Of a stretch of 64,000 nt of DNA, positions 10,351 to 50,287 are shown piece by piece (position 1 is the first letter of the stretch; the number at the start of each line of letters is the position of its first letter). The DNA is from Allomuricauda sp. CAU 1633 (lineage in GTDB: Bacteria > Bacteroidota > Bacteroidia > Flavobacteriales > Flavobacteriaceae): NCBI RefSeq assembly GCF_017313225.1, contig NZ_JAFLNE010000002.1, forward strand, positions 558,001 to 622,000. Reading direction: 5' to 3'. Under the pieces are notes generated by a model. The model was not told where the DNA came from, did no database searches, and saw nothing but the letters and a program-made list of their open reading frames with translations. Made by a program: the position numbers and the translations under genes.

Positions 10351-10481
10351 CGGGATGTGGCCCTTCGGCTACGCTCAGGATAGACCCCGTCTGTCACCCA
10401 GACTGCTTAGCAGTGGACGTTTTGGAAATTGGGTATTGTTTATTGGAAATTGTTGACCGTAGGTCAAACACGGGATGTGGC
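10351..10481 (+). repeat. 11-bp direct duplication of the tRNA-Pro 5' end, 120 bp apart
   Basis: CGGGATGTGGC occurs at 10351-10361 and again at 10471-10481, where it begins the intact tRNA. The 109 bases between begin with CCTTCGGCTACGCTCAGG, which resembles short palindromic repeats common between Flavobacteria genes, and include a small hairpin (GTCTG-tcacc-CAGAC). The arrangement looks like an insertion into the tRNA 5' end with an 11-bp target duplication. Confidence 0.6.
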
Positions 10482-12745: not shown

Positions 12746-13754
12746 ATGGTATAACGTTTCAGAGGAAGAGAAAAAAATAGCCTACAAGCAAATAGGGGAA
12801 CGTACCAACCTTCCAGCATTTGCTGTTGAAAAGGACTGGTGGGTCGTGCAGACATTGGCCATCCTATTCGAATTGGAAATAGGAGAGCATCTGGTATTCA
12901 AAGGAGGCACATCCTTAAGTAAGGCATGGAAAATTATTGAACGGTTCTCCGAGGATATCGATTTGGCCGTTGACCGTTCCTTTTTTGGGTTTGAAGGTGA
13001 TCTGGGCAAGAACCAGCGTACCAAACTTCGAAAAAAAGCAAGTGCCTACATCATTGACACAGTATTACCTGAAATACAAGCTGCCTTTATGGAGAAAGGT
13101 CTGAAAAATGTGCGAATTGAACCTGAAGAAATTGTTTCCAGTGACCAAGACCCGGTAATTCTAAGTGTTTATTATCCGAACGTGATCGAAACGCCAGGTT
13201 ATATACAGCCCAGGGTTCAAATAGAGATTGGTTGCCGATCTTTAAGGGAGCCATTTAAAAAAATGCCAATACTTTCATTGATTGATGAAAAGTTTCCAGA
13301 AGCTGCCTTTGCCCAAACCGCTGTCGAAATACCTTCGGTATTGCCCGAACGAACTTTCCTGGAAAAGATTTTTTTGCTACATGAGGAATTCCAAAGACCG
13401 GTTGATAAAATAAGAGTGGATAGGTTAAGTAGGCATTTGTACGATATTTATCAGATGTCGGTAAAGGAATTCGATGAGAAGGCTCTAGAAAACAAGGATT
13501 TATATGAAACTATTGTAAAACACCGCCATAGCTTCACAAAGTTGGGAGGCGTGGACTACAATTTGCACCAACCCCAAACCATCGATTTTATTCCCCCTGA
13601 AGATTTACTTCCAGCTTGGGAAAGGGATTACTTGATAATGCAAGAGCAAATGATCTATGGTGAATCCCCAACATTCAAGGAACTTACAGGGTATTTGGAA
13701 GCACTTCGAGGGCAGATCAATTCCATGTCATGGACAATGGACTGTAGTTTTTAA
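12726..13754 (+). CDS. AbiEii/AbiGii-type nucleotidyltransferase toxin
   Basis: 342 residues. The nucleotidyltransferase signature FKGGTSLSKAW ... RFSEDIDLAVDR is at residues 58-84: Gly60-Gly61-Thr-Ser63 bind the nucleotide, and Asp77 and Asp79 bind metal. Toxins of this family add nucleotides to RNA, including tRNA acceptor ends, and stop growth. Whether this one is bacteriostatic is not known. A second in-frame ATG at 12738 (MDRWYN) is an equally good start. It is the second gene of a two-gene cassette beside the integrase, a usual place for ICE stability or defence genes. Confidence 0.88.
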   Translation: MIKKMDRWYNVSEEEKKIAYKQIGERTNLPAFAVEKDWWVVQTLAILFELEIGEHLVFKGGTSLSKAWKIIERFSEDIDLAVDRSFFGFEGDLGKNQRTKLRKKASAYIIDTVLPEIQAAFMEKGLKNVRIEPEEIVSSDQDPVILSVYYPNVIETPGYIQPRVQIEIGCRSLREPFKKMPILSLIDEKFPEAAFAQTAVEIPSVLPERTFLEKIFLLHEEFQRPVDKIRVDRLSRHLYDIYQMSVKEFDEKALENKDLYETIVKHRHSFTKLGGVDYNLHQPQTIDFIPPEDLLPAWERDYLIMQEQMIYGESPTFKELTGYLEALRGQINSMSWTMDCSF

Positions 13755-30764: not shown

Positions 30765-33700
30765 ATGAAGAAATCATTGAAACTTTTAGGTAGGAAACCG
30801 TTGTTCCTGCTCTTTTATCTTTTTTTATCGAGCCTGTCCATGGAGCATCTGATAGCAGGCAACCCCTTGGAGCCACCCCAGGCCATGGTCACTGGAAAGG
30901 TTACGGATATTGGGGGATTACCACTTACAGGGGTCAATGTCAGGGTGGAGTCCAAGAATATAGGGGCCATTACTGGACTGGACGGTACCTATTCCATTGA
31001 TGCCGATGGCAGTGATGTGCTGATCTTCTCCATAGTGGGGTTCAAGTCATTGCCCATGCCCATTAATGGAAGGGATGTGATCGATGTAACCATGGAAGAG
31101 AGTGTGACCGCATTGGGAGAAGTGGTACTCAATGCAGGTTATTACACGGTTTCTGGGAGGGAACGTACCGGTAGTATCGAAAAGGTCACCACAGTGGACA
31201 TTGAAAAACAGTCCATTTCCAATCCTTTGGCCGCCCTTCAAGGTCGTATGGTCGGGGTGGAGATACAGCAAACCTCGGGTTTGCCAGGGGCCAATTTCAG
31301 TATCCAGATCAGGGGAAGGAACAGTATCCGGACCGGGGGGAGTGAACCCCTGTACATTGTCGATGGGATGCCATATGCGTCGGAATCCCTAGGGGAACAA
31401 CAGGCTTCCCTTTCCTTGCCAGGTAGGGGGATCAGTCCCCTGAACAACATCAATCCAAATGACATCGAGAGCATTGAGGTGCTCAAGGATGCCGATGCAA
31501 CGGCCATTTATGGTTCCCGTGGGGCGAACGGGGTGGTGCTTATCACCACCAAGACGGGAAAAGTTGGGAAGACCAAGGTCGAGCTCAAAGTAAACACGGG
31601 GCTTGGTAAGGTCTTTCGAACCATGGACCTCTTGGATACAAGGGAATATCTGGCCATGCGGAGGGAAGCCTATGCCAATGATGGGATATCCGATTACCCG
31701 AGCAATGCCTTTGATGTGAACGGGACTTGGGATTCTGACCGCTACACCGATTGGCAACGGAAGTTTTTTGGCAGGACTTCATTTTTGACCAATTTCCAGG
31801 CATCCGTATCAGGTGGCGATCAATACACGACGTTCCTGATCAGTGGGAACTATTATACGCAGACCAGTGTGTTGCCCAAGGATTACCGGAATGAAAAGGT
31901 ATCCGGTCTTGCCAATATTAGGCACCGCACCGTAGGTGGTAGGTTGTCGTTGCAGCTATCCACGCAGTTTGTGGCCAATGTGAACAATCTGCCCGGAGAT
32001 GCCTCCTTGGTACGCCAGGCCTTTTCCCTTGCCCCCAATGCACCGGACCTCTACAATGGGGACGGTTCACTGAACTGGGAGAATTCCACATGGGTCAATC
32101 CCGTCGCTGTTCTGGAGCGTGACTATAGGTCCAATGCCTCCACCCTGATCAGCAACCTCAAAGTGGACTATCAGCTGTTCGGCCCATTGGCATTTAAGGC
32201 CAATTTGGGCTATACGGAGAACCATCTCAAGGAGATTAACACGACCCCTTCCACAATATATGACCCCATATACGGGGTAGGACCGCAATATTCAAGTGCC
32301 GTCCACAATACAGGGAAACGGACATCATGGATCGTGGAACCACAGCTCCATTTGGACCTTTCCCTTGGCTCCACACAACTGGATGCCCTGGCCGGGGCAT
32401 CATTTCAGGAGAGCAGAAGCAATAGGCTGTCCATCAGGGCCTCCAACTTTAGTAGCAATGACCTGATTGAGAACCTGACTGCTGCCAGCAGTTTTTTCCC
32501 CTATGCCGATGTACAGGACCAATATCGGTACCAAGCCGTTTTTGGTCGAGTCAACCTCAATCATTTAGGACGGTATATCCTCAACCTGACCGGCCGGAGG
32601 GACGGGTCAAGTCGTTTTGGGCCCAATAGGCGCTTTGCCAATTTCGGGGCCGTGGGGCTTGCATGGCTGTTCTCAGAGGAAGGGTTCATCGCCAATGCCC
32701 TGCCGTTTTTGAGCCATGGGAAGCTCAGGGCGAGCCATGGTTCATCGGGCAATGACCAGATCGGGAACTATCAATACCTCGATACCTATTCCTTTGGCAG
32801 TGCACAGTACCAGAATGTCATCGGGATCTATCCCACTCGGCTCTTTAATCCTGATTTCAGTTGGGAGACCAATAAAAAGTCGGAGGTGTCCCTTGAACTG
32901 GGATTTTGGAATGATCGTTTGTCCCTGAGCGGTAGCTATTACAGGAACCGTTCCTCCAACCAATTGGTGGGCATCCCCTTGCCAGGGACCACTGGTTTCG
33001 GTTCGGTCAATGCCAATCTGGGGGCCACAGTGGAAAATACGGGATGGGAACTGGGACTGACCATGGTCAACATCCAAAATGGAGACTTTCTATGGACCAC
33101 AGGGCTGAACCTGACCATTCCCAAAAACAGGCTGGTGGCCTTTCCCGATCTAGAGGAATCCACCTATGCCAACCAGTTGGTGGTGGGAAGTCCGCTTAAC
33201 ATCAACAAGGTATACAGGCTCAATGGGGTGGATCCCGAGTCCGGACTGTTCACTTTTGAGGATTTCAATGGGGACGGTATGATCAGCGCACTGGAGGACC
33301 GAGAGGTGGTCAAACGACTGGACCCCAAGTTTTATGGTGGTCTGGACAATCACATTGGAACAGATCGGTTCTCTTTTGATGTTCTGTTCCAGTTCACCAA
33401 ACAAATGGGTTGGAACTTTTGGTCCTCGGCCCCAATCGTAGGGGGCGGCACCAACCAGCCCATCGAAGTATTGGCCCGATGGCAGGAACCTGGAAATGTA
33501 GCTCCCTACCAACGATTTTCATCGGGCAGTGATTCCATGGCCAATCAGGTCTTCAGGACATTTGCCCAGAGCGATGCGACCATAAGTGATGCCTCCTACA
33601 TTCGGTTGCAGAACGTATCGGTATCCTACCGGTTGGCCGATGGGCAAAGGGATGGTTTTGGATGTGAACTGTTTCTCCGGGGGCAGAACCTATGGACGAT

Positions 33701-33794
33701 CACCGATTATCTTGGGTTGGACCCGGAGACACGCAACAAACAGACCGTACCCACCTTGCGCATCCTTTCATTAGGGACACGTTTAACCTTTTAA
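30765..33794 (+). CDS. SusC/RagA-family TonB-dependent outer-membrane transporter
   Basis: 1009 residues. Signal peptide about 1-31; carboxypeptidase-like regulatory domain about 40-115 (VTGKVTDIGGLPLTGVNVRVES); TonB plug about 125-250, with LQGRMVGVEIQQTSG, IQIRGRNSI, PLYIVDGMPY and SIEVLKDADATAIYGSRGANGVVLITTK; the rest is the beta-barrel, ending LGTRLTF. The linker LGEVVLNAGYYTVSGRERTGSIEKV is of a kind I associate with SusC proteins located beside secreted metalloproteases. It forms a transporter with the SusD lipoprotein encoded 11 bases downstream. The substrate is unknown; lack of carbohydrate enzymes and presence of a protease suggest a peptide. Confidence 0.93.
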   Translation: MKKSLKLLGRKPLFLLFYLFLSSLSMEHLIAGNPLEPPQAMVTGKVTDIGGLPLTGVNVRVESKNIGAITGLDGTYSIDADGSDVLIFSIVGFKSLPMPINGRDVIDVTMEESVTALGEVVLNAGYYTVSGRERTGSIEKVTTVDIEKQSISNPLAALQGRMVGVEIQQTSGLPGANFSIQIRGRNSIRTGGSEPLYIVDGMPYASESLGEQQASLSLPGRGISPLNNINPNDIESIEVLKDADATAIYGSRGANGVVLITTKTGKVGKTKVELKVNTGLGKVFRTMDLLDTREYLAMRREAYANDGISDYPSNAFDVNGTWDSDRYTDWQRKFFGRTSFLTNFQASVSGGDQYTTFLISGNYYTQTSVLPKDYRNEKVSGLANIRHRTVGGRLSLQLSTQFVANVNNLPGDASLVRQAFSLAPNAPDLYNGDGSLNWENSTWVNPVAVLERDYRSNASTLISNLKVDYQLFGPLAFKANLGYTENHLKEINTTPSTIYDPIYGVGPQYSSAVHNTGKRTSWIVEPQLHLDLSLGSTQLDALAGASFQESRSNRLSIRASNFSSNDLIENLTAASSFFPYADVQDQYRYQAVFGRVNLNHLGRYILNLTGRRDGSSRFGPNRRFANFGAVGLAWLFSEEGFIANALPFLSHGKLRASHGSSGNDQIGNYQYLDTYSFGSAQYQNVIGIYPTRLFNPDFSWETNKKSEVSLELGFWNDRLSLSGSYYRNRSSNQLVGIPLPGTTGFGSVNANLGATVENTGWELGLTMVNIQNGDFLWTTGLNLTIPKNRLVAFPDLEESTYANQLVVGSPLNINKVYRLNGVDPESGLFTFEDFNGDGMISALEDREVVKRLDPKFYGGLDNHIGTDRFSFDVLFQFTKQMGWNFWSSAPIVGGGTNQPIEVLARWQEPGNVAPYQRFSSGSDSMANQVFRTFAQSDATISDASYIRLQNVSVSYRLADGQRDGFGCELFLRGQNLWTITDYLGLDPETRNKQTVPTLRILSLGTRLTF

Positions 33795-33805
33795 AATGAC
33801 ACATT

Positions 33806-35206
33806 ATGAAATTTAGTTATAAAGAATTGATTATGTGCAGGGTGTTGCAACTAGGTCTTTTGGCCATGCTCACCTGTGCGCTTTCCTGTGAAAAATATTT
33901 GGAAATAGATCCACCGAACCATCAACTGATAGGGGAGGTGGTGTTCCAGGACGGTTCGACCGTTGAGGCCGCTTTTGCCCATATTTATGCGGAAATGAGG
34001 GACTATTCACCCGTCTCGGGCGATATTTCCGGTATATCCTATGTCATGGGGCTTTATGCCGATGAATATGATCATTTCAGTGAGTACCAACAGAGTGCCC
34101 GGAGTTTTTATGACAATGCCGTTCTACCATCGAACACTACCGTACTCAGCCTTTGGAATTCCAGTTATGGGCTTATTTATGCCGTCAACAGGATATTGGA
34201 GGGCGTGGGCTCTTCCACATCCCTGTCCCAGGTCGAAAAGGACCGGTTCATGGGGGAGGCCTATTTTTTGAGGGCATTTCTGCACTTCCATTTGGTCAAC
34301 CTCTTTGGGGATGTCCCATATCTGGATTCCACGGATTATCGGGTGAACCAGGATGTCTCTAGAATGGATACGGAATCGGTGTACCAAAGGCTCGTGTCGG
34401 ATCTGACCTTGGCCAATGAACTGATGTCGACATCGGCTGATGATGCACTGCACTTTCGCCCAGATCCTTGGGTGGCCAGTGCACTCTTGGCACGGGTGTA
34501 CCTCTATAGGGGTGATTGGGCCTTGGCCTTGGAAGAATCCATTGGGGTCATTGCGAGCAGTGGCCGTTCCTTGGAAGCGGAATTGGGGTCGGTCTTTAAA
34601 AAGGGGAGTGCCGAGACCCTATGGCAGTTGGATCCCGGGACCCAGGGGTACAATACCGTGGAGGCCTATACCCTTGTCATCCTCAGTTCCCCGCCCGCGA
34701 ACATTGCCTTGGCCCAACCGCTATTGGACAGTTTTGAGGAAGGGGACCAGCGCTTGGTTGATTGGGTCGGTTCCTTCTCCGATGGAACGGATACCTGGCT
34801 TTTTCCCAATAAGTACAAGCTTTATAATGCCACGGCCGAAACGGAGGAATGCTCCATACTTTTTAGGTTGTCGGAACTGTATTTGATCGCAGCGGAGTCC
34901 AGTGCCCAACTGGGGGAGCTTGACCAGGCCCTTGGGTACCTCAATGCGGTCCGTGCCCGTGCCTCGCTTCCATTGCTCCCGGATATGGGACAAGAGGAGG
35001 TCTTGGATGCCATTTACCATGAGCGGCGCATTGAACTCTTTTCCGAGTTGGGACATAGGTTCATGGATCTCAAAAGGAGCGGTAGGGCAGACCTTGAACA
35101 GGGCATTTCCAAACCAGGGTGGGATGCCACCGATATCGTACTTCCCATACCCGAACAAGAACTCATTAAAAACCCAAACCTATTACCACAGAATGATGGA
35201 TTTTGA
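33806..35206 (+). CDS. SusD/RagB-family outer-membrane lipoprotein
   Basis: 466 residues with a lipoprotein signal ending in CALSC (Cys28). It has the SusD layout: N-terminal helical TPR-like segments (RFMGEAYFLRAFLHFHLVNLFGDVPYLDS near 145-180), the variable binding region, and the C-terminal LNAVRARASLP ... IYHERRIELFSELGHRFMDLKRSG and DIVLPIPEQELIKNPNL. It caps the SusC barrel and captures the substrate at the surface. Its stop overlaps the protease start by 14 bases, so the three genes form one operon. Confidence 0.93.
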   Translation: MKFSYKELIMCRVLQLGLLAMLTCALSCEKYLEIDPPNHQLIGEVVFQDGSTVEAAFAHIYAEMRDYSPVSGDISGISYVMGLYADEYDHFSEYQQSARSFYDNAVLPSNTTVLSLWNSSYGLIYAVNRILEGVGSSTSLSQVEKDRFMGEAYFLRAFLHFHLVNLFGDVPYLDSTDYRVNQDVSRMDTESVYQRLVSDLTLANELMSTSADDALHFRPDPWVASALLARVYLYRGDWALALEESIGVIASSGRSLEAELGSVFKKGSAETLWQLDPGTQGYNTVEAYTLVILSSPPANIALAQPLLDSFEEGDQRLVDWVGSFSDGTDTWLFPNKYKLYNATAETEECSILFRLSELYLIAAESSAQLGELDQALGYLNAVRARASLPLLPDMGQEEVLDAIYHERRIELFSELGHRFMDLKRSGRADLEQGISKPGWDATDIVLPIPEQELIKNPNLLPQNDGF

Positions 35207-37505
35207 AATACAAAGCGGAATAATTGTGAAACGCTTGAAAGGGAAACAATCTGAAATACGTTTGTTTTTATTTATTATTTGGTTAGCGGCCTGCCCTTTT
35301 TTGGGGCAGGCCAATTGTGGGATCAAGGGGACAGTGGAGCAAGGACGACTGGTCTTTGAAGTGCTGGAGGAAGGGCTCGATCTGCCCATGCTCCTTGTAC
35401 GGCACGGTTCCAGTCAATTACAAGTGGTCTGGTCCCGACAGGGCGATTTCATCGAACTGCGTACAACTTGGATCAATTCCCTTGCGGGCGTACGCATACC
35501 CATGTACGGAAACACCCGCATCCGTTCGAACATCCTTGGACGTTATGCCATAATAAGGGAGCGGTCTTCCAAAGACTCCTTTTTTATCGATGTGACCGAT
35601 CTGTTCCTAAAGGCCGAAATCCCATGGCCCTTTTCCAGCAAGGAAACCGTAATTCCATCCTTGTCCTATATCAAAGGGGTACGGTATTTTGATAATGAGA
35701 CCATTATTGAGACCACCCGGACGCAGGCCTATAAAGAAAACCGAACGAGCCTTGACATGACCTTCAGCCTATACCGCCTGCCAAAGCCCATGCAACCAAG
35801 ATTGTTCGACCATAGGATGGCCTATTCATACGAAAATCGATATAATAGTCAAGAAAGCATGCCCCTGACCGCCAAGGGAAGCATTATGCGCTGGCGGTTG
35901 GAAAAAAGGGACCAAGGAGCGGAGACCAGCGTACCTGTTGAGCCCATCGTATTTTATTTGGACCCCAAGATCCCTGAAAAATGGAAACCGTATGTTAGGG
36001 CAGGGGTGTATGAATGGCTGCCTGCTTTTGAAAGGGCGGGGTTCAGCAATGCCATAGAGGTAAGGGATGTACCCAAGGGGGATAAGGATTTTTCGCGTAC
36101 CAGCTTGAACCGGTCCATGATTCGTTGGAAGGTCCTTGAGGATGTGCGTGGCAGTGAAGTTGGCGGTTCCACTATATGGGCCGTTACCGACTATCGCAGC
36201 GGGGAGATCATAAAAGCGGATATCTTGTTGGGCATGGACATCAACGACAAGAGTGACGAATATTTTGTCCGCTGTGCACCCTTGGACAAGCGGGCACAGG
36301 CCTATCCTTTTCCTGATGACCTTTTAGGGTCGCTCATCCAATCCACAACGGCGCATGAGGCGGGACATGCCTTTGGGATCCGTGATGCCAATTTTGGGGA
36401 GTTCGCCTATCCGCTTGAAAGGGTAAGGGATATTGAATGGTTGAAAACAATGGGGCATACCCCGAGTATCATGAATTATTCCCGACACCACCATATTGTA
36501 CAGCCCGGGGACAGTGTGCCGCCCTCCCTGTTACTACAACGGGTGGGCCCCTTGGACAGGTATTATATCCAATGGGGCTATCAGCCTTTTCCACAGGCGG
36601 ACGGGCCGGAAGAGGAACTACCCTTTTTGGAGCCTTTGGTACGGCAACAGGACTCCCTTCCATGGTATCGGTACAACTCTAGGCTTTTTGAATTTCTTGG
36701 CCCAGGTAGTGCGGAGGAGGTCTCCGATAATGATGATCCCATCGGGAGTACCCTGCTTGGCCTTAAAAACCTGGAACGAGTCATGGGTTTGATTCCCAGT
36801 GCCAATCAAGATAAGAGGGACGACCAACTGGTAAAGCGGCTCCATAGGAAAACCCTGGATTTTTGGTACAAGCAGATGCGCCGGGTCCTTTCAATGATTG
36901 GGGGCTATGCCATCCAGAACAGATCGGGTGCGCAGAAAGGAGCTATATACTCAGCGATTCCCATGGTGGATCAAAAGAAGGCCTTGGCATTTCTGTTGGA
37001 CCATGCCTTTGAAGTCCCGAAGTGGTTGGCCGAACCTGATTTTCAGAAAAAGTATGGTTATTCCACCAATGCGGATTACCTGTTGAACCGACAGCACACG
37101 TTGTTGGAGGAATTCATGGATGCACTCCGTATGAAACGCTTGGAATATACGGAGGAGTCCATCCTTGGGGAAGCCGTCGTCCAACCCTTGCTTTCTGACC
37201 TGCGGGCGGGGCTTTTTAGGGAGCTTGACATACGGTCGCCGATTGTGGATCGACGGAGACAATGTCTGCAAGGGGCCTATCTCTCCCTGTTGGTGGAAGG
37301 GGTTTCTCAAGGCAATTATTACAGTAAACAAGGGATGGGGAACACCAATATGATTTATTCCGATTATTCCAAGAGTGTGATGTTTTCTGAGCTTATGGCC
37401 TTAAGGGTATCCTTGCACGATGCATATGACCGCACATCGGACACCAATACATTGGGGCATATTCGGATGTGTCTGTTGGAATTGGAAAAAATGGGGCTGC
37501 CCTGA
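35193..37505 (+). CDS. Secreted zinc-dependent metalloprotease (HExxHxxGxxD)
   Basis: 770 residues from the ATG at 35193; the frame is open well upstream, but there it overlaps susD out of frame. A signal peptide (hydrophobic core about 24-38, LFLFIIWLAACPFLG) directs export. The zinc motif is HEAGHAFGIRD with His388, Glu389 and His392, followed by a Met-turn SIMNY about 40 residues later, as in metzincin-like proteases. Upstream is a beta-rich domain (about 60-270) seen with the Bacteroidota DUF5117/DUF4953-type proteases. Translational coupling to susD implies that it acts on the SusCD substrate, either before or after uptake. A strong terminator ends the operon. Confidence 0.88.
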   Translation: MMDFEIQSGIIVKRLKGKQSEIRLFLFIIWLAACPFLGQANCGIKGTVEQGRLVFEVLEEGLDLPMLLVRHGSSQLQVVWSRQGDFIELRTTWINSLAGVRIPMYGNTRIRSNILGRYAIIRERSSKDSFFIDVTDLFLKAEIPWPFSSKETVIPSLSYIKGVRYFDNETIIETTRTQAYKENRTSLDMTFSLYRLPKPMQPRLFDHRMAYSYENRYNSQESMPLTAKGSIMRWRLEKRDQGAETSVPVEPIVFYLDPKIPEKWKPYVRAGVYEWLPAFERAGFSNAIEVRDVPKGDKDFSRTSLNRSMIRWKVLEDVRGSEVGGSTIWAVTDYRSGEIIKADILLGMDINDKSDEYFVRCAPLDKRAQAYPFPDDLLGSLIQSTTAHEAGHAFGIRDANFGEFAYPLERVRDIEWLKTMGHTPSIMNYSRHHHIVQPGDSVPPSLLLQRVGPLDRYYIQWGYQPFPQADGPEEELPFLEPLVRQQDSLPWYRYNSRLFEFLGPGSAEEVSDNDDPIGSTLLGLKNLERVMGLIPSANQDKRDDQLVKRLHRKTLDFWYKQMRRVLSMIGGYAIQNRSGAQKGAIYSAIPMVDQKKALAFLLDHAFEVPKWLAEPDFQKKYGYSTNADYLLNRQHTLLEEFMDALRMKRLEYTEESILGEAVVQPLLSDLRAGLFRELDIRSPIVDRRRQCLQGAYLSLLVEGVSQGNYYSKQGMGNTNMIYSDYSKSVMFSELMALRVSLHDAYDRTSDTNTLGHIRMCLLELEKMGLP

Positions 37506-37548: not shown

Positions 37549-37824
37549 CTAAAGATAGTCTCTCTTTAACTCGGTGTGGCACGATGTCCCATCCTTGAAA
37601 CGAAAATAGGTGTCATTCCCAATGGTACAGGAATATTCCCCATTTGCCTTACATTGGACTTGCACCTCGTTACAGGGCTCGGAAGGATTGGTGTTTGGGA
37701 CATAACCAGGAATGAAGGCATTATCCTCATTCATCGGTTGGTCGATGGCCGTAAAGGCACTGGCAACAATGGCAAAGACAATGGCCATGGCCGGAATTAA
37801 AAACTTGATCGCTCTTGTTTTCAT
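37549..37824 (-). CDS. Small exported four-cysteine peptide (DUF6520-like)
   Basis: 91 residues. The N-terminal signal (MKTRAIKFLIPAMAIVFAIVASAFTA) leads to a mature part of about 60-65 residues with cysteines at 51, 58, 66 and 82, enough for two disulfides: PCNEVQVQC ... EYSC ... TSC. Similar small proteins (DUF6520/NVEALA-like) are found in Bacteroidota beside SusCD, MauE-like and propeller proteins; none has a firmly known role to my knowledge. It is the last gene of a minus-strand set with the propeller protein and the MauE-like redox protein. I infer that it is a secreted peptide whose disulfides, processing or transport involve these neighbours. Confidence 0.78.
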   Translation of the reverse strand: MKTRAIKFLIPAMAIVFAIVASAFTAIDQPMNEDNAFIPGYVPNTNPSEPCNEVQVQCKANGEYSCTIGNDTYFRFKDGTSCHTELKRDYL

Positions 37825-37902
37825 AATAGTAATATTTAAATGTTATGATCTACTCTGTTCACGGGTTTTCGATCTTTCCCCCACTACTGGCCAGTAGGAT
37901 TT

Positions 37903-39000
37903 TTATTTTTCGTGGTCAGGGTTCCCTGTTGATTTGGTAAAATAGGCATCGACCAATTGATATATGGAGAGGTGGCGTCCCATCAAGGCCACCAGATGAT
38001 CACCGAACAATTTGAATTCCTTTAGGCGTTGTCCCTCGACATGATGGATGTAAAAACTGAATGCATAGGTGCCTTCTTTCCAATCGTACACATCGATGAT
38101 GGAGGCCTCATCCAACATGTCCGTGGGTTCATTCTTGCCTAGACGGTTGGAGTGTATCATAAGGTACCGGTCATATAGTGCGGTTTCCAAATTGATGAAC
38201 AAGGGTGGGGCGGACATTTCTGTGGTTCCCTTTTCCGATAGGGAGGTCAGTTTGATCTGGGGCTCTTGTACGGTGTCGATGGTGCTGCGCTTTTGGAGGG
38301 TGTGGAGCCGATCGTCCAAGATCAGATATTGGTTCCGATAGAAATATACATAACCGATATGTCGCTGGTCAGGAGTAATGGTAAAAGCACCGTCCACATC
38401 AAAGATCCCATCCAGTTTTCTCTCGAGTATGTCAGGGTGGAGGGTTACCGTGAGACTGTCGTCCCTTTCCATGAGCCCGAGTACGGACCTTCCTGTTTTG
38501 GCACTTATGGACCTGATGGCAATACGGTTGCTGTCGATGGCTTGGGCCTTTGAAAAATACGCCCGGTCCTTGGCCCATACCGTGGCCTGCCAGTTGTCGG
38601 TACTGCCCCGTAGGATCATTGGGGTGATTCCATCCAAGGCAAAGAAATAGGGGGGTAGGACCTGAATGTTCAGTATTTTGGTGCGCACGGAGTCCAAATC
38701 GGTTTCCAGGCTCAGTTCGATGTGTGTGGTGTCCCTGTCCCCTAACCGGATACGAAGCAGGTGCAGGGGCGCGGTACTGTTCCCGAGGTAGAGTATGTCC
38801 TTATCAATTCCCGCAATGTAATACGAATTGTACCCAAGGTCAAGGTCATAAGATTTGATGACGGGATGGGGCGGGTACCTTCGTGTAAAGGCATTGTTGC
38901 GGTGTACCTGTTTTTCGGAGGCAAGAAAAAGAAGGATGACCACTGCTATACTTACGCTTAGGGTTCCAAAGAGTTTGAAGTATATGGGTTTTGTGCTCAT
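37903..39000 (-). CDS. Membrane-anchored propeller-like protein (BF3164/TolB-like)
   Basis: 365 residues. One N-terminal membrane segment (about 8-27, LFGTLSVSIAVVILLFLAS) anchors a large exported domain of repeating beta-strand blocks (YIAGIDKDILYLGNSTAPLHLLRI ... RHIGYVYFYRNQYLILDD ... FKLFGDHLVALMG), consistent with a six- or seven-bladed propeller of the kind found beside DUF6520/NVEALA peptides. There is no lipobox. Its start overlaps the MauE-like stop by four bases (ATGA), so it is translationally coupled to it. Function unknown; a binding role for the small peptide is inference. Confidence 0.7.
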   Translation of the reverse strand: MSTKPIYFKLFGTLSVSIAVVILLFLASEKQVHRNNAFTRRYPPHPVIKSYDLDLGYNSYYIAGIDKDILYLGNSTAPLHLLRIRLGDRDTTHIELSLETDLDSVRTKILNIQVLPPYFFALDGITPMILRGSTDNWQATVWAKDRAYFSKAQAIDSNRIAIRSISAKTGRSVLGLMERDDSLTVTLHPDILERKLDGIFDVDGAFTITPDQRHIGYVYFYRNQYLILDDRLHTLQKRSTIDTVQEPQIKLTSLSEKGTTEMSAPPLFINLETALYDRYLMIHSNRLGKNEPTDMLDEASIIDVYDWKEGTYAFSFYIHHVEGQRLKEFKLFGDHLVALMGRHLSIYQLVDAYFTKSTGNPDHEK

Positions 39001-39443
39001 GATCGACTGGTTTTTGAGGTTGACTTTGTTCCTGTGGCAAGAATGGCCGATAAGGCCATAAGGATGAAGAACAGGTTGAAGGCGATGTGCTCCGTCCAGC
39101 CCAGATCCTCAAGGACGCCACCACAGGAACAGGGAACATAGTCACTGAAGTTGAGCACCAAGATGATATAGGTGGTGAACATGGTCATAAGGCCAAGGGT
39201 GGCATATAGTGCCTTTAACCTTGTGGTCTCCCACAGTAATAGGAAGGCCAAGATATATTCCGTAACGGGAACGTGCCAGGCCACCCAGTCCGCATAGGCC
39301 GTCAGAACCGGGGACTGTCCCAGTTGTATTTTGAACTGTCGAAAGTCCCACAGTTTACTGGTGGCCGCATAGATGAACAAAATGACATAGAGTATACTGA
39401 CCGAGTAGGGCAACCAGATCATGATGTATTTTGAACCTTTCAT
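38997..39443 (-). CDS. MauE/DoxX-family redox-associated membrane protein
   Basis: 148 residues with four predicted membrane helices (about 8-28, 58-80, 82-99, 117-136). Between helices three and four is the motif DYVPCSCGGVLEDLGW with Cys105 and Cys107, the CxC motif of this MauE-like group, which passes electrons to or from periplasmic thiols. No thioredoxin-like partner (TlpA) is encoded nearby. It is first in the operon with the propeller protein and the four-cysteine peptide, which would be a natural thiol substrate. Two 21-bp direct repeats and a -7-like box lie just upstream. Confidence 0.82.
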   Translation of the reverse strand: MKGSKYIMIWLPYSVSILYVILFIYAATSKLWDFRQFKIQLGQSPVLTAYADWVAWHVPVTEYILAFLLLWETTRLKALYATLGLMTMFTTYIILVLNFSDYVPCSCGGVLEDLGWTEHIAFNLFFILMALSAILATGTKSTSKTSRS

Positions 39444-39527: not shown

Positions 39528-40463
39528 CTATCGGGAGGTTTCCCTTAATTCACTTGGGGACAGCCCGTACTTGTCCTTGAAGGCCCGGGAAAAATGGGCC
39601 GGGCTCTTGAATCCCGTCATATGGGCAATCTGCTTCAGGGAAAGGTCACTGTGCTGGATCAATGTCCTGGTCTTTCGCAGGCGTTCCTGGACCAGGCACC
39701 GGAATATGGTGATGCCGTAAAGCTGTTTGAAGCCATATTTCAATTTATACTCATTGGTCCCCATTTGTAGGGCCAGGTCCTTCAACTGCGGTAGATCTTT
39801 CTCGAGGTTGTTGAGGATCATATCATGGACATCCCTGATCATTTGGATGTCCCTTGGGCCCAAGATCACCTTGGGCTCCTTGATGCCCTTGGTCAGCTTC
39901 ATCGTTTTTTTGGGTCGCCCCGTTTCAAAGGGTTCCCCTTTGGAAAAGAATACGGTGTTCAACAGGATTTTTCGGCCTGCCCCATCAAGGGATTTGAAGA
40001 CCGAGATGTGGCAATCATTGGAAAGCAAGAGGCCCTGGTGGGTCATCAACTCCAAGTGGAGGACCGTTTCAGAACTATCCCTTTTCAAGAGTTTGGACAG
40101 CTCTTTGGCCCATTTCTTTCGGGAAATTTCGGTCATCAGATCGGTGAGGCCCTTTCCGATCACGTCCTTGGGCAGACAGGACAGGAGGGAACAGGAACCA
40201 TTGGTGACCATCTCAATGGTGCCATTGGCATCCATGAGCAGGGAAAGTTGTATGATGCACTGTGGGGTATGGTGTGCATTGGCAAAACCTTGGTGGACAA
40301 AGGAGGCCCGGATCTCCTCGTTGACCATGTTGAGCATGACCACCAAGGAGGCGATATTGTCATTCTTTTCCGAAGGCTCAAGGCTATGGAAGAAATTGCC
40401 CTTGGCCATTTCCAAGAGCATGTTATGAATTCGTTTTACCCTAAAGTCATCACTGTTTGGCAT
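39528..40463 (-). CDS. AraC-family regulator with N-terminal PAS-like sensor
   Basis: 311 residues. An N-terminal helical part (about 1-65) precedes a PAS-like domain (about 70-180: LLMDANGTIEMVTNGSCSLLSCLPKDVIGKGLTDLM). Two AraC HTH motifs occupy about 215-308: LKDLALQMGTNEYKLKYGFKQLYG and LSLKQIAHMTGFKSPAHFSRAFKDKYGLSPSELR. The PAS-like part may sense a small ligand or redox state. It lies between the two sets of 21-bp repeats, which are probably its binding sites, and it is in an operon 5 bases after the STAS-like gene. Confidence 0.87.
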   Translation of the reverse strand: MPNSDDFRVKRIHNMLLEMAKGNFFHSLEPSEKNDNIASLVVMLNMVNEEIRASFVHQGFANAHHTPQCIIQLSLLMDANGTIEMVTNGSCSLLSCLPKDVIGKGLTDLMTEISRKKWAKELSKLLKRDSSETVLHLELMTHQGLLLSNDCHISVFKSLDGAGRKILLNTVFFSKGEPFETGRPKKTMKLTKGIKEPKVILGPRDIQMIRDVHDMILNNLEKDLPQLKDLALQMGTNEYKLKYGFKQLYGITIFRCLVQERLRKTRTLIQHSDLSLKQIAHMTGFKSPAHFSRAFKDKYGLSPSELRETSR

Positions 40464-40468
40464 GCGAT

Positions 40469-40861
40469 TTATGGTTTGTCATTGTAATCATCTTCCACTC
40501 CCAAGAAGGCAAGGGCTTCCGATTTATTCGTAAAGGAACGCGTTGGGACACTTTTGGGATGGGTCTCCAAGTAAATGGAACTGATCACATCCGTGATCGG
40601 GGGGTCGATCAAAAATGCGATTGTGGTGATCCATTGTGAGCCTTCCAGGGCAAGATAGTCCCTTGCCGGTTTGTTGATGTTGCGTACCTCACGGATATCG
40701 CACAGCACGGGCAATTCCCTCCCCTGTTGCAACTGCATCCGGTCCCTGACGATGATCTCGGCGGCCTTGAGGTCGATATGGGATACCTTCTTGTATATGA
40801 TATGTAACAGCTCATCGGTCAACAGGTAAATGGCATAGTTGTTCTCATGTGTTTTTCTCAT
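40469..40861 (-). CDS. Small STAS/SpoIIAA-like protein
   Basis: 130 residues when started at the ATG at 40861 (MRKTHENN); earlier in-frame starts (TTG 40888, ATG 40882) lie at or before the probable transcription start. The alternation of strands and helices (LLHIIYKKVSHIDLKAAEIIV ... PVLCDIREVRNINKPARDYL ... TTIAFLIDPPITDVISSIYL) resembles STAS-like proteins often found beside regulators in Bacteroidota. It may modulate the AraC protein encoded 5 bases downstream. Family identity is tentative. Confidence 0.65.
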   Translation of the reverse strand: MRKTHENNYAIYLLTDELLHIIYKKVSHIDLKAAEIIVRDRMQLQQGRELPVLCDIREVRNINKPARDYLALEGSQWITTIAFLIDPPITDVISSIYLETHPKSVPTRSFTNKSEALAFLGVEDDYNDKP

Positions 40862-40892
40862 CTTTTGAAAACTGGTTAGCATTTTCAATTTA

Positions 40893-40900
40893 CAAAAATA
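40893..40900 (-). promoter_or_regulatory. -7 box TATTTTTG for the STAS-like/araC operon
   Basis: On the minus strand TATTTTTG exactly fits TAnnTTTG and is 31 bases upstream of the ATG at 40861. No clear -33 element precedes it; the 21-bp repeats begin 33 bases upstream and may supply activation or repression. Confidence 0.5.
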
Positions 40901-40933
40901 GTGGCAATGGGTTTTTTGTTGGATAGTGATTGC

Positions 40934-40996
40934 TTGAATGAAAAGGAGTTTTACTTGCCTAAAACGGAATAATGCTTGACTGAAACGGAGTAATAT
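40934..40996 (+). promoter_or_regulatory. Three tandem 21-bp direct repeats upstream of the synthase-rteC operon
   Basis: Units start at 40934, 40955 and 40976. Units one and two each match unit three at 16 of 21 positions. A rough consensus is TTGACTGAAACGGAGTAA plus three less conserved bases. The 21-bp period is two helical turns, as for AraC-family half-sites in araI. The array sits between the divergent STAS-like/araC operon and the oxoamine synthase gene and is related to the repeats at 39482. Confidence 0.65.
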
Positions 40997-41060
40997 GAAT
41001 TATCAGTTCATATAATCCGACAATTGCCATTACTTTTTATGATAATTCAAACCAAACACG

Positions 41061-43466
41061 ATGGCAAAGATCAAACACCACAATTTTTTGAACACCGTAC
41101 ATGAAGTATTTACCGATGCCAAAAATGCAGGGGTGCTCCATCTGTATGCTGGGGGCAACTCCTTTTCGGGCAGGACCATTGAGGTCAAGGGCAGGGAACT
41201 GTACCATTTCGGGACCACGGGCTATCTGGGACTGGAACAGGATGTGCGGTTAAAGAGAGCGGCGATGGAAGCCATTGATAGGTACGGTACCCAATTCCCA
41301 TTGTCCAAATCCTATATTTCGAATCCCTTGTACAGGGAACTGGAGGAGTCCGTCAAAAAAATGTACGGGCAGCCCATTGTCATCACCAAGAACAGTACCC
41401 TTGGTCATATGGGGGTCATTCCCAGTGCGGTGGACGACGATGATGTGATCATTCTGGACCATCAGGTACATTGGAGCGTGCAGAATGCCGCCAAGATGCT
41501 CAAGACCCGGAGTGTTCCCATTGAGATGATACGTCACAACCATTTGGAAATGTTGGAGGACAAGATCAAGAAGTACCGTGATACGAAAAGGCACATTTGG
41601 TATATGGCCGATGGTATCTACTCGATGTTCGGGGACTATGCCCCGGTCAATGATTTGATGGTGCTTTCCAAAAAATATCCACAGCTCCATTTTTACTTTG
41701 ACGACGTGCATGGCATGAGTTGGGTGGGCAAAAACGGTACGGGCTATGTTTTGGACCAATTGGGCGAACTGCCCGAAAATGTCCTTTTGTTCGGGACCCT
41801 GAGCAAGACCTTTGGGGCCAGTGGGGCCGTATTGGCCTGTTCAAATCCACGGCTGTACGACAAGATCAAGACCTTTGGTGGACCGCTCACATTTTCGGCC
41901 CAATTGGAACCGGCCTCCGTGGCCGCAGCGATGGCCTCGGCCCAAATACATCTATCCCCCGAGATATATGAACTGCAAAAGGAACTGCGCAAGCGTATTG
42001 ATCACTTCAATGGATATCTGTCGGATACGGGACTGCCCCTTATCGACCAGAATGGATCCCCGGTCTTCTACATTGGAACAGGAATGCCCAAGACAGGGTA
42101 CAATTTTGTGAACCGTCTCATGCGGGAAGGGTATTTTGTGAACCTGGGGATATTCCCCGCGGTCCCTGTCAAGAACACAGGGGTCCGCATCACCATTTCG
42201 CGGCATAACCAACTGGAGGAGATAAAGACATTGGTGGAAGCCATTGAGCATCATTTTCCGAAGGCGCTGGAAGAGACCCATACGAATGCTGACCGGGTGT
42301 TCCATGCCTTTAAATTGGAACCCCGCATCAAAAGCGTTCAGAAAGTTGTGGATGGGCCACAAGTCGAAGTGTTGGAATCCATTGAGCAGGTGGACCGGGC
42401 GGAGTGGAACTGTTACTTGGGGGGACAGGGCGTCTATGATTGGGACGGTCTGAGGTTCTTGGAAGTGGTATTTCAGGGAAATGCGAAACCTGAGCACAAT
42501 TGGATGTTCCGGTATGTGATGATACGGGACAATAACGGGGTTCCCATTTTAGTGGTCTTTTTGTCCCTGTCCCTCTGGAAGGATGATATGCTGGCCGATG
42601 CCAAGGTGTCGCAGGCCATAGAAGAGGAGCGTTTGACCCATCCTTACCATCTGTCCTCACAGGTGCTTTCCATGGGATGCCTGTTCACTGAAGGATCCCA
42701 TATGTACTTTGACCCGTCCCATCAATGGTCGGGGCGGGCAAAGCATGCTCTCTTGGAATGGATGGAAACGCAGGAACGGAACTTGGGCGCCAAAATGACC
42801 GTGCTACGGGATTTTCCAAAGGAGACTCCTTGGAACGATACGTTGTATGGCCATGGGTTCTTGAGGGTACGAATGCCCAATTCCTGTGCCGTGCAACTTA
42901 AGGGAGCGGAATCCATCGAAACCTATGTGCAAGGCCTGTCGTCAAGGAACCGTAGGCATTTCAGAAAGGATATCAAGCCTTTTCTTGGACGGGTCAACAA
43001 ACAGGTACTTCCAAAACTTGACCGTTCACAGTTGGTACAGGTCAAAAAGCTGTTCGGGGAGGTACAGGCCAGAAATTTAGGCCTGAACACCTTCTCCTTT
43101 CCCGATTCCCTATTTGAACGAATGAACGAAAGCCCTTTATGGGAGTTCATCCTGTTGAACCCCCTTGATCAAACGAATAGGGTACTGGGGGTGATGTTCT
43201 GTTACAACAACATTGGTAAGGTATATGTACCGGCATTTGTGGGGATGGACTATTCCACATTGGAGGAGTATGCAACCTATCGGCAGTTGTTGTACCGGAC
43301 CATCGAACGTGCCATTGAACGGGGTTTTCCCAATATCGATTTTGGGATGACCGCCGCGTTTGAAAAAAGAAAACTCGGCGCTACGGTACAGGATAAGTAC
43401 GCCTACCTTCAGACCGATGACAATTTTATATTAGAACTGCTCGGGGTCATGGAGGGCCAACATTGA
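41061..43466 (+). CDS. Alpha-oxoamine synthase-like PLP enzyme fused to a GNAT-like acyltransferase
   Basis: 801 residues. Residues about 35-410 are a fold-type I PLP enzyme of the alpha-oxoamine synthase group (AONS, KBL, serine palmitoyltransferase, CqsA): FGTTGYLGLEQDVRLKRAAMEAIDRYGT near 50-77, DDVHG (214-218) in place of DEAHS, and the Schiff-base Lys249 in FGTLSKTFGASGA. These enzymes condense an acyl-CoA with an amino acid. Residues about 430-801 resemble FemAB/CelD-type GNAT acyltransferases (SSRNRRHFRKDIKPF; ERGFPNIDFGMTAAFEKRKLG). The product could be an N-acylated amino ketone or sphingoid/sulfonolipid-like lipid; this is inference. rteC begins 12 bases downstream, so the two are co-transcribed. 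Confidence 0.87.
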   Translation: MAKIKHHNFLNTVHEVFTDAKNAGVLHLYAGGNSFSGRTIEVKGRELYHFGTTGYLGLEQDVRLKRAAMEAIDRYGTQFPLSKSYISNPLYRELEESVKKMYGQPIVITKNSTLGHMGVIPSAVDDDDVIILDHQVHWSVQNAAKMLKTRSVPIEMIRHNHLEMLEDKIKKYRDTKRHIWYMADGIYSMFGDYAPVNDLMVLSKKYPQLHFYFDDVHGMSWVGKNGTGYVLDQLGELPENVLLFGTLSKTFGASGAVLACSNPRLYDKIKTFGGPLTFSAQLEPASVAAAMASAQIHLSPEIYELQKELRKRIDHFNGYLSDTGLPLIDQNGSPVFYIGTGMPKTGYNFVNRLMREGYFVNLGIFPAVPVKNTGVRITISRHNQLEEIKTLVEAIEHHFPKALEETHTNADRVFHAFKLEPRIKSVQKVVDGPQVEVLESIEQVDRAEWNCYLGGQGVYDWDGLRFLEVVFQGNAKPEHNWMFRYVMIRDNNGVPILVVFLSLSLWKDDMLADAKVSQAIEEERLTHPYHLSSQVLSMGCLFTEGSHMYFDPSHQWSGRAKHALLEWMETQERNLGAKMTVLRDFPKETPWNDTLYGHGFLRVRMPNSCAVQLKGAESIETYVQGLSSRNRRHFRKDIKPFLGRVNKQVLPKLDRSQLVQVKKLFGEVQARNLGLNTFSFPDSLFERMNESPLWEFILLNPLDQTNRVLGVMFCYNNIGKVYVPAFVGMDYSTLEEYATYRQLLYRTIERAIERGFPNIDFGMTAAFEKRKLGATVQDKYAYLQTDDNFILELLGVMEGQH

Positions 43467-43478
43467 GGGGAAGCTGTC

Positions 43479-44318
43479 ATGAAATACCAAAAGCTGCTAT
43501 CTGAATTCGAGGCGCAATTGGATGCACTGGAAAATGGGAACGGGGATGTCCTCTTCAAAGCGGAAAAGGGAATCGTGCTGGTGGAGAAGAGTATCCGGAA
43601 GCTGCAAAAACAAATTGCGGGGAAGACCTTTGTCACCCAAGCGGATGAAATCTATTTCTTCAAGCACGTCAAGCCCCAGATATTCAGCAAACTGATCTAT
43701 TATGTCAAGCTCTTCAATATCGAGAGCAAACGCCCACGAGGGAAGAACCCTTCCCAGATCAAATACCTCCAGCACCAGATCGATAAGTTCCAGACCTTTT
43801 TCAACGATAACCTTGAATTCTATAATTATTACCGCCGTGGTGCCATGTCACTGGACGAACGGTATTTTGTCAGGGGCAACCGAGATCTGCGGCTTCCCCT
43901 AGAATCTTTCCACTTTTTGATCGATGACCAGTTCTCGACCTGTCAGGACGGGACCGTGGCCACCATTATGGCCTATGATATGCTCATCGTATACCTGAGA
44001 AAAGAAGTGGATGACCTGAACAATTCCCTCGAACCCCAAAAGAACACACCTATGGAAAAACCCTCTAAATTATTCTGGACCGGTAGCAAGACCGACCTGA
44101 TCGAACTGCTCTACGCACTCCATGCCAGTAGTTCCATCAATAGTGGAACAGTGGACATCAAGGAACTGGCTTCCCATTTTGAACATTTTTACAATGTGGA
44201 CCTCGGCAATTACTACCATACCTTTATCGATATACGCTCCAGGAAAAGTAGCAAGACCCGCTTTTTGGACAAGCTCATCGAGATGCTGAACCAACGGATG
44301 GATTCCTTGGATGAGTGA
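43479..44318 (+). CDS. rteC: RteC-family excision regulator
   Basis: 279 residues. The C-terminal part (about 200-279: FWTGSKTDLIELLYALHASSSINSG, then FEHFYNVDLGNYYHTFIDIRSRKSSKTRFLDKLIEMLNQRMD) is the RteC signature. In CTnDOT, RteC binds an inverted repeat upstream of the excision operon and activates it. Here an excisionase-like gene lies 282 bases downstream and two identical palindromes occupy the gap. No RteA/RteB two-component pair is present; the gene instead shares an operon with the oxoamine synthase fusion, which suggests a different input signal. Confidence 0.92.
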   Translation: MKYQKLLSEFEAQLDALENGNGDVLFKAEKGIVLVEKSIRKLQKQIAGKTFVTQADEIYFFKHVKPQIFSKLIYYVKLFNIESKRPRGKNPSQIKYLQHQIDKFQTFFNDNLEFYNYYRRGAMSLDERYFVRGNRDLRLPLESFHFLIDDQFSTCQDGTVATIMAYDMLIVYLRKEVDDLNNSLEPQKNTPMEKPSKLFWTGSKTDLIELLYALHASSSINSGTVDIKELASHFEHFYNVDLGNYYHTFIDIRSRKSSKTRFLDKLIEMLNQRMDSLDE

Positions 44319-50003: not shown

Positions 50004-50287
50004 TGAAACGGTACAAGGTCTATAGAAATATTCGAATGAGGGCCCTGATCATGGGCCTACCCATTCCCTTTTTTGCCCTGATGATGGTCTCTGTGGTATG
50101 CTCCCTATTGATTGTCATATTCACATTTCATTTTGGTGTCATCGTGGGCCTGCTGTTGTTCAATGTCCTGCTCTATGGGGCATTGGGCCAGTGGGTCAAA
50201 AGACCATTTCAGATTACGGTCAGCAAGACATTTCCTGATATGATCAGCAACAAACACTTAAGTCCCTTGTCCCATGTCCAGTATTGA
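50003..50287 (+). CDS. traF: TraF-like conjugation protein (DUF4133)
   Basis: 94 residues with two membrane helices (about 15-45 and 46-62) and a short basic N-terminus (MKRYKVYRNIRMR). It matches DUF4133/TraF, the VirB3-like inner-membrane component, between traE and traG. It overlaps traG by 14 bases. Confidence 0.87.
   Translation: MKRYKVYRNIRMRALIMGLPIPFFALMMVSVVCSLLIVIFTFHFGVIVGLLLFNVLLYGALGQWVKRPFQITVSKTFPDMISNKHLSPLSHVQY

Follow-up and report, generated by a model that had tools for sequence, protein, structure and literature searches.

Several described systems share parts with the locus reported here. The genes mauE and mauD act together with mauA and mauB in the maturation of methylamine dehydrogenase, in which MauE serves a small cysteine-rich subunit that stands beside a propeller. 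The tryptophan tryptophylquinone (TTQ) cofactor needs two conserved tryptophans in that small subunit. NVEALA peptides of Bacteroidales are small exported cysteine peptides encoded next to a propeller protein. RagAB of Porphyromonas gingivalis is a SusC/SusD pair of the RagA/RagB superfamily next to peptide-cutting enzymes, and to our knowledge RagAB loci do not encode an exported cysteine peptide of their own, a MauE-propeller protein, a pseudoknot leader or mobility genes. Here we analyze a stretch of 64,000 nucleotides from Allomuricauda sp. CAU 1633 (contig NZ_JAFLNE010000002.1, positions 558,001 to 622,000; "the window" hereafter), in which genes for a SusC/SusD pair and an exported peptidase converge with genes for a MauE-type redox protein, a membrane-anchored propeller and a DUF6520 peptide with four cysteines. 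This gene set is a real, conserved and mobile system that is not described in the papers we found. A tentative reading, to which we give somewhat less than an even chance, is that it is a mobile peptide-handling cassette: the peptide would be exported and disulfide-processed by the MauE-propeller unit, and such peptides would enter through SusCD and be cut in the periplasm.

Peptide uptake by SusCD pairs has a precedent in RagAB, going by the available part of the source (PMC11817032), and a SusCD pair of Flavobacterium psychrophilum is discussed with a peptidase and proposed for oligopeptide import in the accessible portion of PMC9723704. The parts of the cassette in the window are as follows.

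30765..33794, plus strand: SusC/RagA TonB-dependent outer-membrane transporter (TIGR04056, 699 bits against a cut-off of 368).
33806..35206, plus strand: SusD/RagB surface lipoprotein (PF14322, 2.7e-28; PF07980, 5e-25).
35193..37505, plus strand: exported Met-zincin peptidase with DUF5117 and DUF4953 and the motif HEAGH (PF16313, 1.6e-64; PF17148, 9.8e-17).
37549..37824, minus strand: exported DUF6520 peptide whose mature part has four cysteines (PF20130, 37.2 bits versus a cut-off of 25.4).
37847..37897, minus strand: conserved RNA leader (sequence, the 75 copies of alignment A4, pair counts and a sub-threshold DUF805b match of 16.8 bits).
37903..39000, minus strand: membrane-anchored, putatively periplasmic beta-propeller protein (fold model of the fused homologue L126).
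38997..39443, minus strand: MauE-type membrane redox protein with the CxC motif PCSCGG (PF07291, 4.5e-31, 108.2 bits against a cut-off of 27).

The sequence-only reading had named the six proteins of this list, and all of them were located by family matches or sequence. The TIGR04056 match, the SusD_RagB domains and the adjacency of the two genes, 11 nt apart, mark SusC and SusD as a transport pair; SusC is the short form, without the extra N-terminal stretch of FecR-coupled copies. The proposed coupling of SusCD to the protease holds as well, as the likely ATG of the zincin (35193) lies within the end of susD (for the Pfam scan the ORF was taken from 35175). On the other strand, the mauE and propeller genes overlap by ATGA. 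The propeller protein of the window has no Pfam match up to E = 1. The peptide exceeds the PF20130 cut-off, has a signal-like N-terminus and four cysteines, and its gene is the only DUF6520 gene in the genome. No sugar enzymes were found among the 30 window proteins scanned (a subset of the window ORFs), in line with the earlier claim that the block holds none.

To learn how widely the arrangement occurs, we sampled 395 Bacteroidota genomes (this set and the 296-genome set used below are even draws) and found DUF6520 in 32 of them, at 41 places. Thirty-six places were fetched; left out were the window's own copy and G295, G160, G092 and G159, which are long or interrupted frames or partial matches. 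SusC was present in 34 of these 36 loci, SusD in 35, MauE in 35, a peptidase in 26 and TlpA in 9. With the propeller as anchor, a profile of 23 sequences was compared with named genomes, and the best 80 of 441 relatives gave 79 loci, a set that leans towards the relatives of the window because only these best 80 were kept, and in which some loci stop at contig borders. Genes were called by a custom ORF script. The 79 loci come mostly from Flavobacterium, Allomuricauda/Muricauda, Flavivirga, Sinomicrobium and their kin, and they contain MauE (77), DUF6520 (68), SusC (69), SusD (70) and a peptidase (64). The co-occurrence across Bacteroidota that the sequence-only reading had suggested looking for is thus present.

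The control consisted of 40 other SusC loci from 18 DUF6520-bearing genomes, hand-picked at even steps among the listed best-scoring matches and leaning towards typical glycan-type SusC. They held no DUF6520, MauE, propeller or mobility genes, and a peptidase in only two cases. The cassette differs from the control with Fisher p values of 2e-9 to 1e-29, and its convergent arrangement is beyond chance. As the neighborhood profiles were built from cassette loci and favor detection in cassettes, we added extra controls with Pfam models. The DUF6520 profile built here recognized 28 of the 36 DUF6520-anchored loci, so profile-based DUF6520 counts are lower bounds. In the control loci, the slot after susD (40 proteins, Pfam) often holds glycan-related proteins such as GH30, GH43, sulfatase and SGBP, and no peptidase is among the 25 of 39 Pfam families listed for it.

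The slot after susD looks different in relatives of the cassette, where it is filled by S9, Met-zincin, M16 or S8 peptidases, or by TlpA; peptidases of at least four unrelated families share this one position. In the 79 propeller loci we counted S9 in 44, zincin in 19 and M16 in 2 (loci can count twice), and TlpA in 8. The motif HExxH is present in 20 of 20 zincins over 700 amino acids, and GxSxGG in 59 of 65 S9 proteins. As the inspected starts of slot proteins resemble signal peptides ending in GQ or AQ, we take these enzymes to be periplasmic. The sequence-only reading had included the HEAGH protease as a cassette part; the slot is indeed commonly occupied by a peptidase, and the enzyme is neither obligatory nor constant in family. 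A sequence comparison at the thresholds used gave no solved structure related to the zincin.

FecR genes lie beside 11 of the 79 propeller loci and sigma genes beside 10. FecR neighbors are typical of ligand-sensing TonB receptors, and the pattern suggests that ligand sensing regulates some cassettes. SusC copies longer than 1060 amino acids make up 20 of 100 (L082, L088, L106 and others); compared with the window SusC, the plug of L082 begins some 90 residues further in, and genes for FecR and an extracytoplasmic function (ECF) sigma factor come next.

In 44 of 80 ORFs from the 79 loci, MauE and the propeller form one polypeptide, and we therefore read them as one unit, which this fusion supports. 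The CxC motif is found in 73 of 73 MauE homologues, as PCSCGG in 71 and PCTCGG in 2. An AlphaFold model of the fused homologue L126 (pLDDT 89.3) consists of five long helices followed by the propeller; the CxC loop connects long helices three and four, and helix five leads into the propeller. If the amino end lies inside, the CxC loop and the propeller of this model would both face the periplasm. The sequence-only reading had called the propeller membrane-anchored, and a beta-propeller fold, with a closed ring and four-stranded blades, is seen in this model of L126, a fused homologue and not the window protein itself. Its closest solved fold is 3s9j, a Bacteroides DUF4221 protein (VIA-align Z 19.7, rmsd 3.8, 293 residues aligned), followed by the NHL domain 1q7f (Z 18.0). 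By sequence, the propeller profile found no solved relative at the thresholds used. A search of plasmids likewise gave no propeller relative at E 1e-5, and 160 pattern matches in IMG/VR included no relative. Membership in DUF4221 (PF13970) by sequence was considered and rejected, with no Pfam match up to E = 1 and an hhalign probability of 0.3 against one DUF4221 protein.

A distant form of the locus occurs in L032, L039, L052, L055, L060, L061, L063, L065, L234 and L235. Here MauE and SusCD occur without a propeller, the peptides that were read have fewer cysteines, and several loci add a TlpA-like protein; that of L032 has a single cysteine, in a GCSAS motif.

The DUF6520 peptide keeps its cysteines and little else. 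Exactly four mature cysteines are present in 75 of 79 peptide homologues. Alignment A3, with 62 peptides (61 of the 79 and the window copy; 18 left out), is invariant only at Met1 and the four cysteines. The second peptide of L116, outside A3, has only two mature cysteines. In 15 locus pairs with a propeller distance of 0.25–0.35, the mature part differs by 0.55, against 0.30 for the propeller, 0.35 for SusD and 0.32 for SusC, which is about twice the divergence of the other parts at small distances (mature-peptide distances omit the cysteine columns and saturate at large distances). Peptide genes may stand in tandem, with six copies in L135 and two in L143. In L113 and L090 an extra DUF6520 gene lies upstream of MauE besides the downstream one, with no match to the leader model R1 (see below) before the upstream copies. 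Co-variation between the peptide and SusCD was tried as binding evidence. The partial Mantel correlation of the mature peptide with SusC given the propeller is 0.397, and that of the signal peptide is 0.433; we rejected co-variation as evidence of binding because the signal peptide, which is not expected to bind SusC, correlates equally.

An RNA leader precedes the peptide gene, lying 22 nt before the start codon. It ends at 37847 on the minus strand, and it is an addition to the sequence-only reading, which did not describe it. In the window, a palindromic hairpin (37897-37884) is followed by an H-type pseudoknot, the strands of which were assigned from sequence and covariation.

37883-37880 with 37865-37862, minus strand: pseudoknot stem a, strands a and a'.
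37874-37871 with 37850-37847, minus strand: pseudoknot stem b, strands b and b'.

A regular expression that chose the best-paired reading, and so favors pairing somewhat, showed the RNA core in 85 of 93 stretches before peptide genes; 79 of these are distinct and 75 are in A4. Across the 75 copies, standard pairs fill 88.8% of cells, compared with 20.4–37.1% when the partner is slid by 1–3 columns, and the covariation score is 0.352 versus at most 0.102 for slid partners. Stem a is paired in 96.3% of cells and stem b in 97.0%. Two-sided changes occur in four of four pairs of stem b and one of four pairs of stem a, and G-U forms also occur. The leader is therefore an H-type pseudoknot with two crossing stems and covariation. 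A perfect palindrome of at least 10 nt stands before the pseudoknot in 44 of the 75 copies (shuffled mean 1.1, largest 4). These palindromes have nine different centers, which indicates that the palindrome itself rather than its sequence is kept, and such a palindromic loop could allow two copies of the leader RNA to pair with each other. Each of the six tandem peptides of L135 has its own copy of the leader. The Bacteroidota promoter motif TAnnTTTG was looked for before the peptide gene and rejected, being present in 1 of 92, under the shuffled mean of 3.8.

A covariance model of the leader, R1, matches 73 of the 79 propeller loci, many of which built it. In the 395 genomes it has matches at 42 places in 26 genomes, and in the genome of the window strain only at the window place. 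Fourteen R1 matches fall outside the PF20130 list: nine at full or partial cassettes with DUF6520, two at MauE/SusCD loci with a DUF6520-like peptide, and three elsewhere. Of these three, one precedes the gene of a PixA-like protein, one a class I lanthipeptide precursor gene, and one lacks a clear leader setting. The RNA as an independent anchor recovers the same cassette. In L087, where the fetched stretch has no SusCD, R1 matches a second time at 11684-11741 (40.2 bits), past the DUF6520 gene; the first long gene to follow, at a distance of 500 bases, resembles pyruvate-formate-lyase.

The closest described RNA is Rfam DUF805b (RF02914, clan CL00115). The window copy scores 16.8 bits, below the gathering score of 35.6, and another cassette copy scanned singly scores 15.0 bits. 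Copies at the same position before DUF6520-type genes in loci L047, L236, L054 and L052 (G277, G210, G012 and G194) exceed the gathering score with 50.8, 44.7, 44.3 and 42.5 bits, respectively. By sequence, the window leader is a divergent relative of DUF805b, with which it shares the core CGAAAAnCC..AGAGUAG and the a/a' stem. The cassette leaders differ in having covarying b/b' pairs, which make the pseudoknot, and often a palindromic hairpin, neither of which is in the DUF805b consensus structure. DUF805b matches occur in 108 of the 296 genomes, 59 of them over the cut-off. The next gene was read in 18 of 25 DUF805b loci: two encode DUF6520, and among the others are an NHLP-like precursor (below cut-off), a subtilase, DUF2589, DUF6345 and proteins without a known family. 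The leader type is common to the peptide gene and a varied set of genes including natural-product precursors, suggesting a shared control of DUF805b-led genes at the RNA level. No paper naming DUF805b was found in the open-access literature. Individual leaders of the DUF805b type were noted at L237:9063-9227, L232:8397-8972, L258, L251 and L259, with a class I lanthipeptide precursor, PixA-like, NHLP-like precursor, subtilase and DUF2589 genes behind them.

The cassette of the window lies in a region that resembles an integrative conjugative element (ICE); the sequence-only reading had called it ICE cargo. The ICE-like element has tRNA-Pro at 10471, a tyrosine integrase at 10773-12029, ParB, DNA polymerase III alpha and RadC, and further DUF5712 at 24581, RteC, TraG at 50274, TraM at 54715 and TraN/DUF4138 at 55659; it thus has both an integrase and conjugation genes. 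A PF03432 relaxase was not found on this contig, and the one copy of the genome is on another contig. The DUF5712 protein is the sole relaxase candidate seen in the element and may act in that role. The end of tRNA-Pro has no repeat elsewhere in the window or, by exact match, in the genome that would mark an attachment site. Tyrosine integrase, conjugation genes and RteC are common to this element, the CTnDOT-type ICEs with RteC, and ICEEa1 of Elizabethkingia. The cargo of ICEEa1 comprises metal resistance and haemin genes and not this cassette, as far as the available part of the source describes it (PMC5458099).

Mobility genes often accompany the cassette. RteC, MobC, a relaxase or TraG occurs within the fetched stretch in 46 of 79 propeller loci and 21 of 36 DUF6520 loci, compared with none of the 40 controls. 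With Pfam models, a relaxase or RteC lies within 10 kb of 20 of 31 cassette places (18 genomes) versus 0 of 40 control stretches, and 12 of the 31 relaxases and 9 of the 18 RteC genes of the same 18 genomes lie within 10 kb of a cassette. L107 and L114 share 96.1% identity along 8954 bases that begin shortly before MauE::propeller and end inside SusC, and their flank matches are 72.1% and 80.5%. Likewise, L119 and L125 share 95.2% over 9480 bases, with further pieces at 75–84%. Sequence comparison thus shows the cassette moving as a block between species.

By the tests made, the cassette is a member of none of the RagAB, mau and NVEALA systems. Like the mau genes, it combines a MauE membrane redox protein, a small cysteine-rich exported peptide and a beta-propeller protein. 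However, the DUF6520 alignment has no conserved tryptophan, which does not fit a TTQ small subunit, and the propeller is fused or tethered to MauE rather than being a secreted enzyme subunit. In common with the NVEALA loci, it pairs a small exported cysteine peptide with a propeller protein, and the best fold match of the cassette propeller is a DUF4221 structure. In G238 (L187, L188 and L189), five of six NVEALA genes are followed by a DUF4221, DUF5128 or TolB_like six-bladed propeller, and the sixth neighbor was unscanned. These three stretches differ from the cassette in having no match to the MauE, SusC, SusD, peptidase and DUF6520 profiles, and the cassette propeller profile did not match the one DUF4221 protein compared with it. 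We found no open-access paper on DUF6520, NVEALA or DUF4221, and none that brings together SusD, conjugative, peptidase, Flavobacterium and TonB-dependent receptor (subscription papers were outside the scope). This agrees with the earlier remark that the DUF6520/MauE/SusCD association has no firm function. Overall, the earlier observation was right and understated.

The working of a peptide-handling cassette may be pictured as follows. The DUF6520 gene would be read under its own DUF805b-like pseudoknot leader, which probably sets the translation or stability of the message. The signal-like N-terminus suggests that the Sec system takes the peptide to the periplasm. There, MauE with its presumed periplasmic CxC loop and the tethered propeller, a likely docking platform, would create the peptide's two disulfides or rearrange them. 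The mature peptide would then exit the cell, and SusCD would import such peptides, either the cell's own or other versions from neighbors. In the last step, the periplasmic peptidase or TlpA encoded in the slot after susD would cut or reduce the incoming peptide. The net result would be that a diversifying disulfide peptide is secreted and recaptured, or exchanged; the mobile element could use it for signaling, in competition or for scavenging. The convergent architecture with its controls, the fusion, the four cysteines, the varied peptidases, the leader type shared with a lanthipeptide precursor, the FecR neighbors, the conserved CxC, the glycan-related control slots, the recovery of the cassette from the RNA anchor and the SusCD precedents all speak for this reading. 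A stronger version, in which the element carries an "own-peptide" system, appears doubtful to us: a hypervariable disulfide peptide under a pseudoknot leader would be matured by the redox-propeller and recaptured by the element's own SusCD and peptidase, as a signal by which carriers and non-carriers of the element recognize or compete with one another.

A number of observations weigh against the peptide-handling reading. Loci L087 and L121 hold MauE-propeller-DUF6520 with no SusCD in the stretch fetched, 10 of 79 loci lack SusC, 15 of 79 lack a peptidase in the stretch fetched, and L088, L089, L091 and L094 have none in the slot. Ten of 92 loci have the first peptide gene upstream of the propeller instead of behind it, as in the other 82, and the R1 match is missing in 6 of 79 (L100, L101, L102, L105, L106 and L117). 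L135 has six peptide genes and one SusD in the stretch examined. A single CxC without a second pair is an incomplete relay of the DsbB/VKOR type. The structure model of the peptide is only fair (pLDDT 71.8, pTM 0.45); it gave no structure match at Z ≥ 2, a result that speaks neither way. The blocks shared by L128/L136 and L133/L144 run longer, beyond the cassette, so not every exchange is of the cassette alone. The PDB relatives of the window SusC are "SusC homolog" entries first (top 8aa4, which we take to stem from studies of glycan utilisomes), followed by the peptide importer RagA; because of this ranking the sequence is compatible with glycan transport, and it does not favor peptide over glycan. 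The sequence-only reading had the peptide oxidised or reduced through MauE, bound by the propeller, and cut or moved by the protease and SusCD. The setting of that idea is supported: the shared neighborhood, the fusion, the changing peptidase and the mobile-element context. The peptide itself would be a putative substrate of MauE and of the peptidase, ligand of the propeller and cargo of SusCD; partial Mantel tests gave no co-variation specific to the peptide with SusC or SusD beyond the level of the signal peptide.

The main rival is an ordinary locus for peptide nutrition, which we regard as somewhat unlikely. SusCD and the periplasmic peptidase would import environmental oligopeptides as RagAB does, and MauE, the propeller and DUF6520 would be an envelope helper, either for redox quality control of the peptidase or SusC or as a small subunit of SusCD, and would not supply the substrate. 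This would suit a slot in which the peptidase family varies, the presence of RagA among the PDB relatives of SusC, and the convergent transcription, which permits separate use of the two halves; the proposal for F. psychrophilum SusCD and its peptidase also points this way, in the accessible text (PMC9723704). It sits less well with the frequencies of DUF6520 and MauE (68 and 77 of 79), which are about those of SusC and SusD (69 and 70 of 79), with the retention of MauE-propeller-DUF6520 where no SusCD was seen in the fetched stretch (L087 and L121), and with the roughly twofold divergence of the mature peptide, which is odd for a fixed subunit. DUF6520 might instead be a secreted bacteriocin-like or pheromone-like peptide in a competition or signaling system of the mobile element, with SusCD, the peptidase and TlpA sensing it or giving immunity by clearing it, in the manner of a peptide pheromone that informs donors about carriage of the element by neighbors. 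The mobile context (46/79 versus 0/40; with Pfam models 20/31 versus 0/40), the fast divergence of the mature peptide and its tandem copies (L135 and L143), the leader type common to a lanthipeptide precursor, the adjoining RteC and AraC regulators and the FecR/sigma variants are all in keeping with such a role. Nevertheless, the genes scanned include no recognizable dedicated exporter, no immunity gene and, apart from MauE, no maturation enzyme, the elements carry many other genes too, and we know of no killing or transfer phenotype, so we consider it unlikely.

By analogy with methanobactin-type loci, the peptide could be a metallophore: a secreted cysteine peptide would bind metal or haem, SusCD would return it, the peptidase would free the cargo, and FecR and sigma factors would sense the loaded form. 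A TonB-dependent receptor beside a small cysteine peptide, with FecR and sigma neighbors in 11 and 10 of 79 loci, fits this picture; however, the peptide alignment has no metal-binding pattern beyond the four cysteines, and an exported peptide encoded next to a redox protein would be expected to have its cysteines in disulfides, which makes a metallophore very improbable. Scarcely credible is a glycan system whose neighborhood is a hitch-hiking accident of the mobile element. Although the top PDB relative of SusC is the "SusC homolog" 8aa4, the same gene set recurs with different flanks (L107 versus L114), and the identified slot genes are peptidases or TlpA where the control slots hold glycan enzymes.

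The cassette links the exported cysteine peptide DUF6520 with an RNA leader and with four partners that can be tested. Should SusCD import the element's own peptide, SusCD pairs would be more than nutrient importers and mobile elements would use them for cell-to-cell peptide traffic. Otherwise, the cassette is a defined locus for the role of a MauE-type protein in Bacteroidota and for the targets of DUF805b-type RNA.

Upstream of mauE, the window continues with the following genes.

39528..40463, minus strand: AraC-type regulator with a weakly PAS-like N-terminal part (PF12833, 1.7e-20; PAS_9, 0.0018, below cut-off).
40469..40888, minus strand: DUF7793 protein, next to the AraC gene (PF25056, 1.7e-39; present in 30 of 79 loci).
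41061..43466, plus strand: pyridoxal phosphate (PLP)-dependent alpha-oxoamine-synthase-like protein with a weakly GNAT-like C-terminal part (PF00155, 9.4e-25; in 23 of 79 loci).
43479..44318, plus strand: ICE regulator RteC (PF09357, 1.9e-83; in 25 of 79 loci).

The AraC gene has the same direction as mauE and is found again in relatives. The DUF7793-AraC block facing the PLP protein and RteC (40469-44318) also lies beside the cassette in L070, L075, L103 and L108. The PLP protein scores 257 bits with the PRK07505 subfamily, under the cut-off of 342. It also weakly resembles an autoinducer synthase model and may therefore produce a small signal molecule for the element. An AbiE-like toxin-antitoxin pair (DUF6088 and AbiEii) was observed at 12134-13754, close to the integrase of the element.

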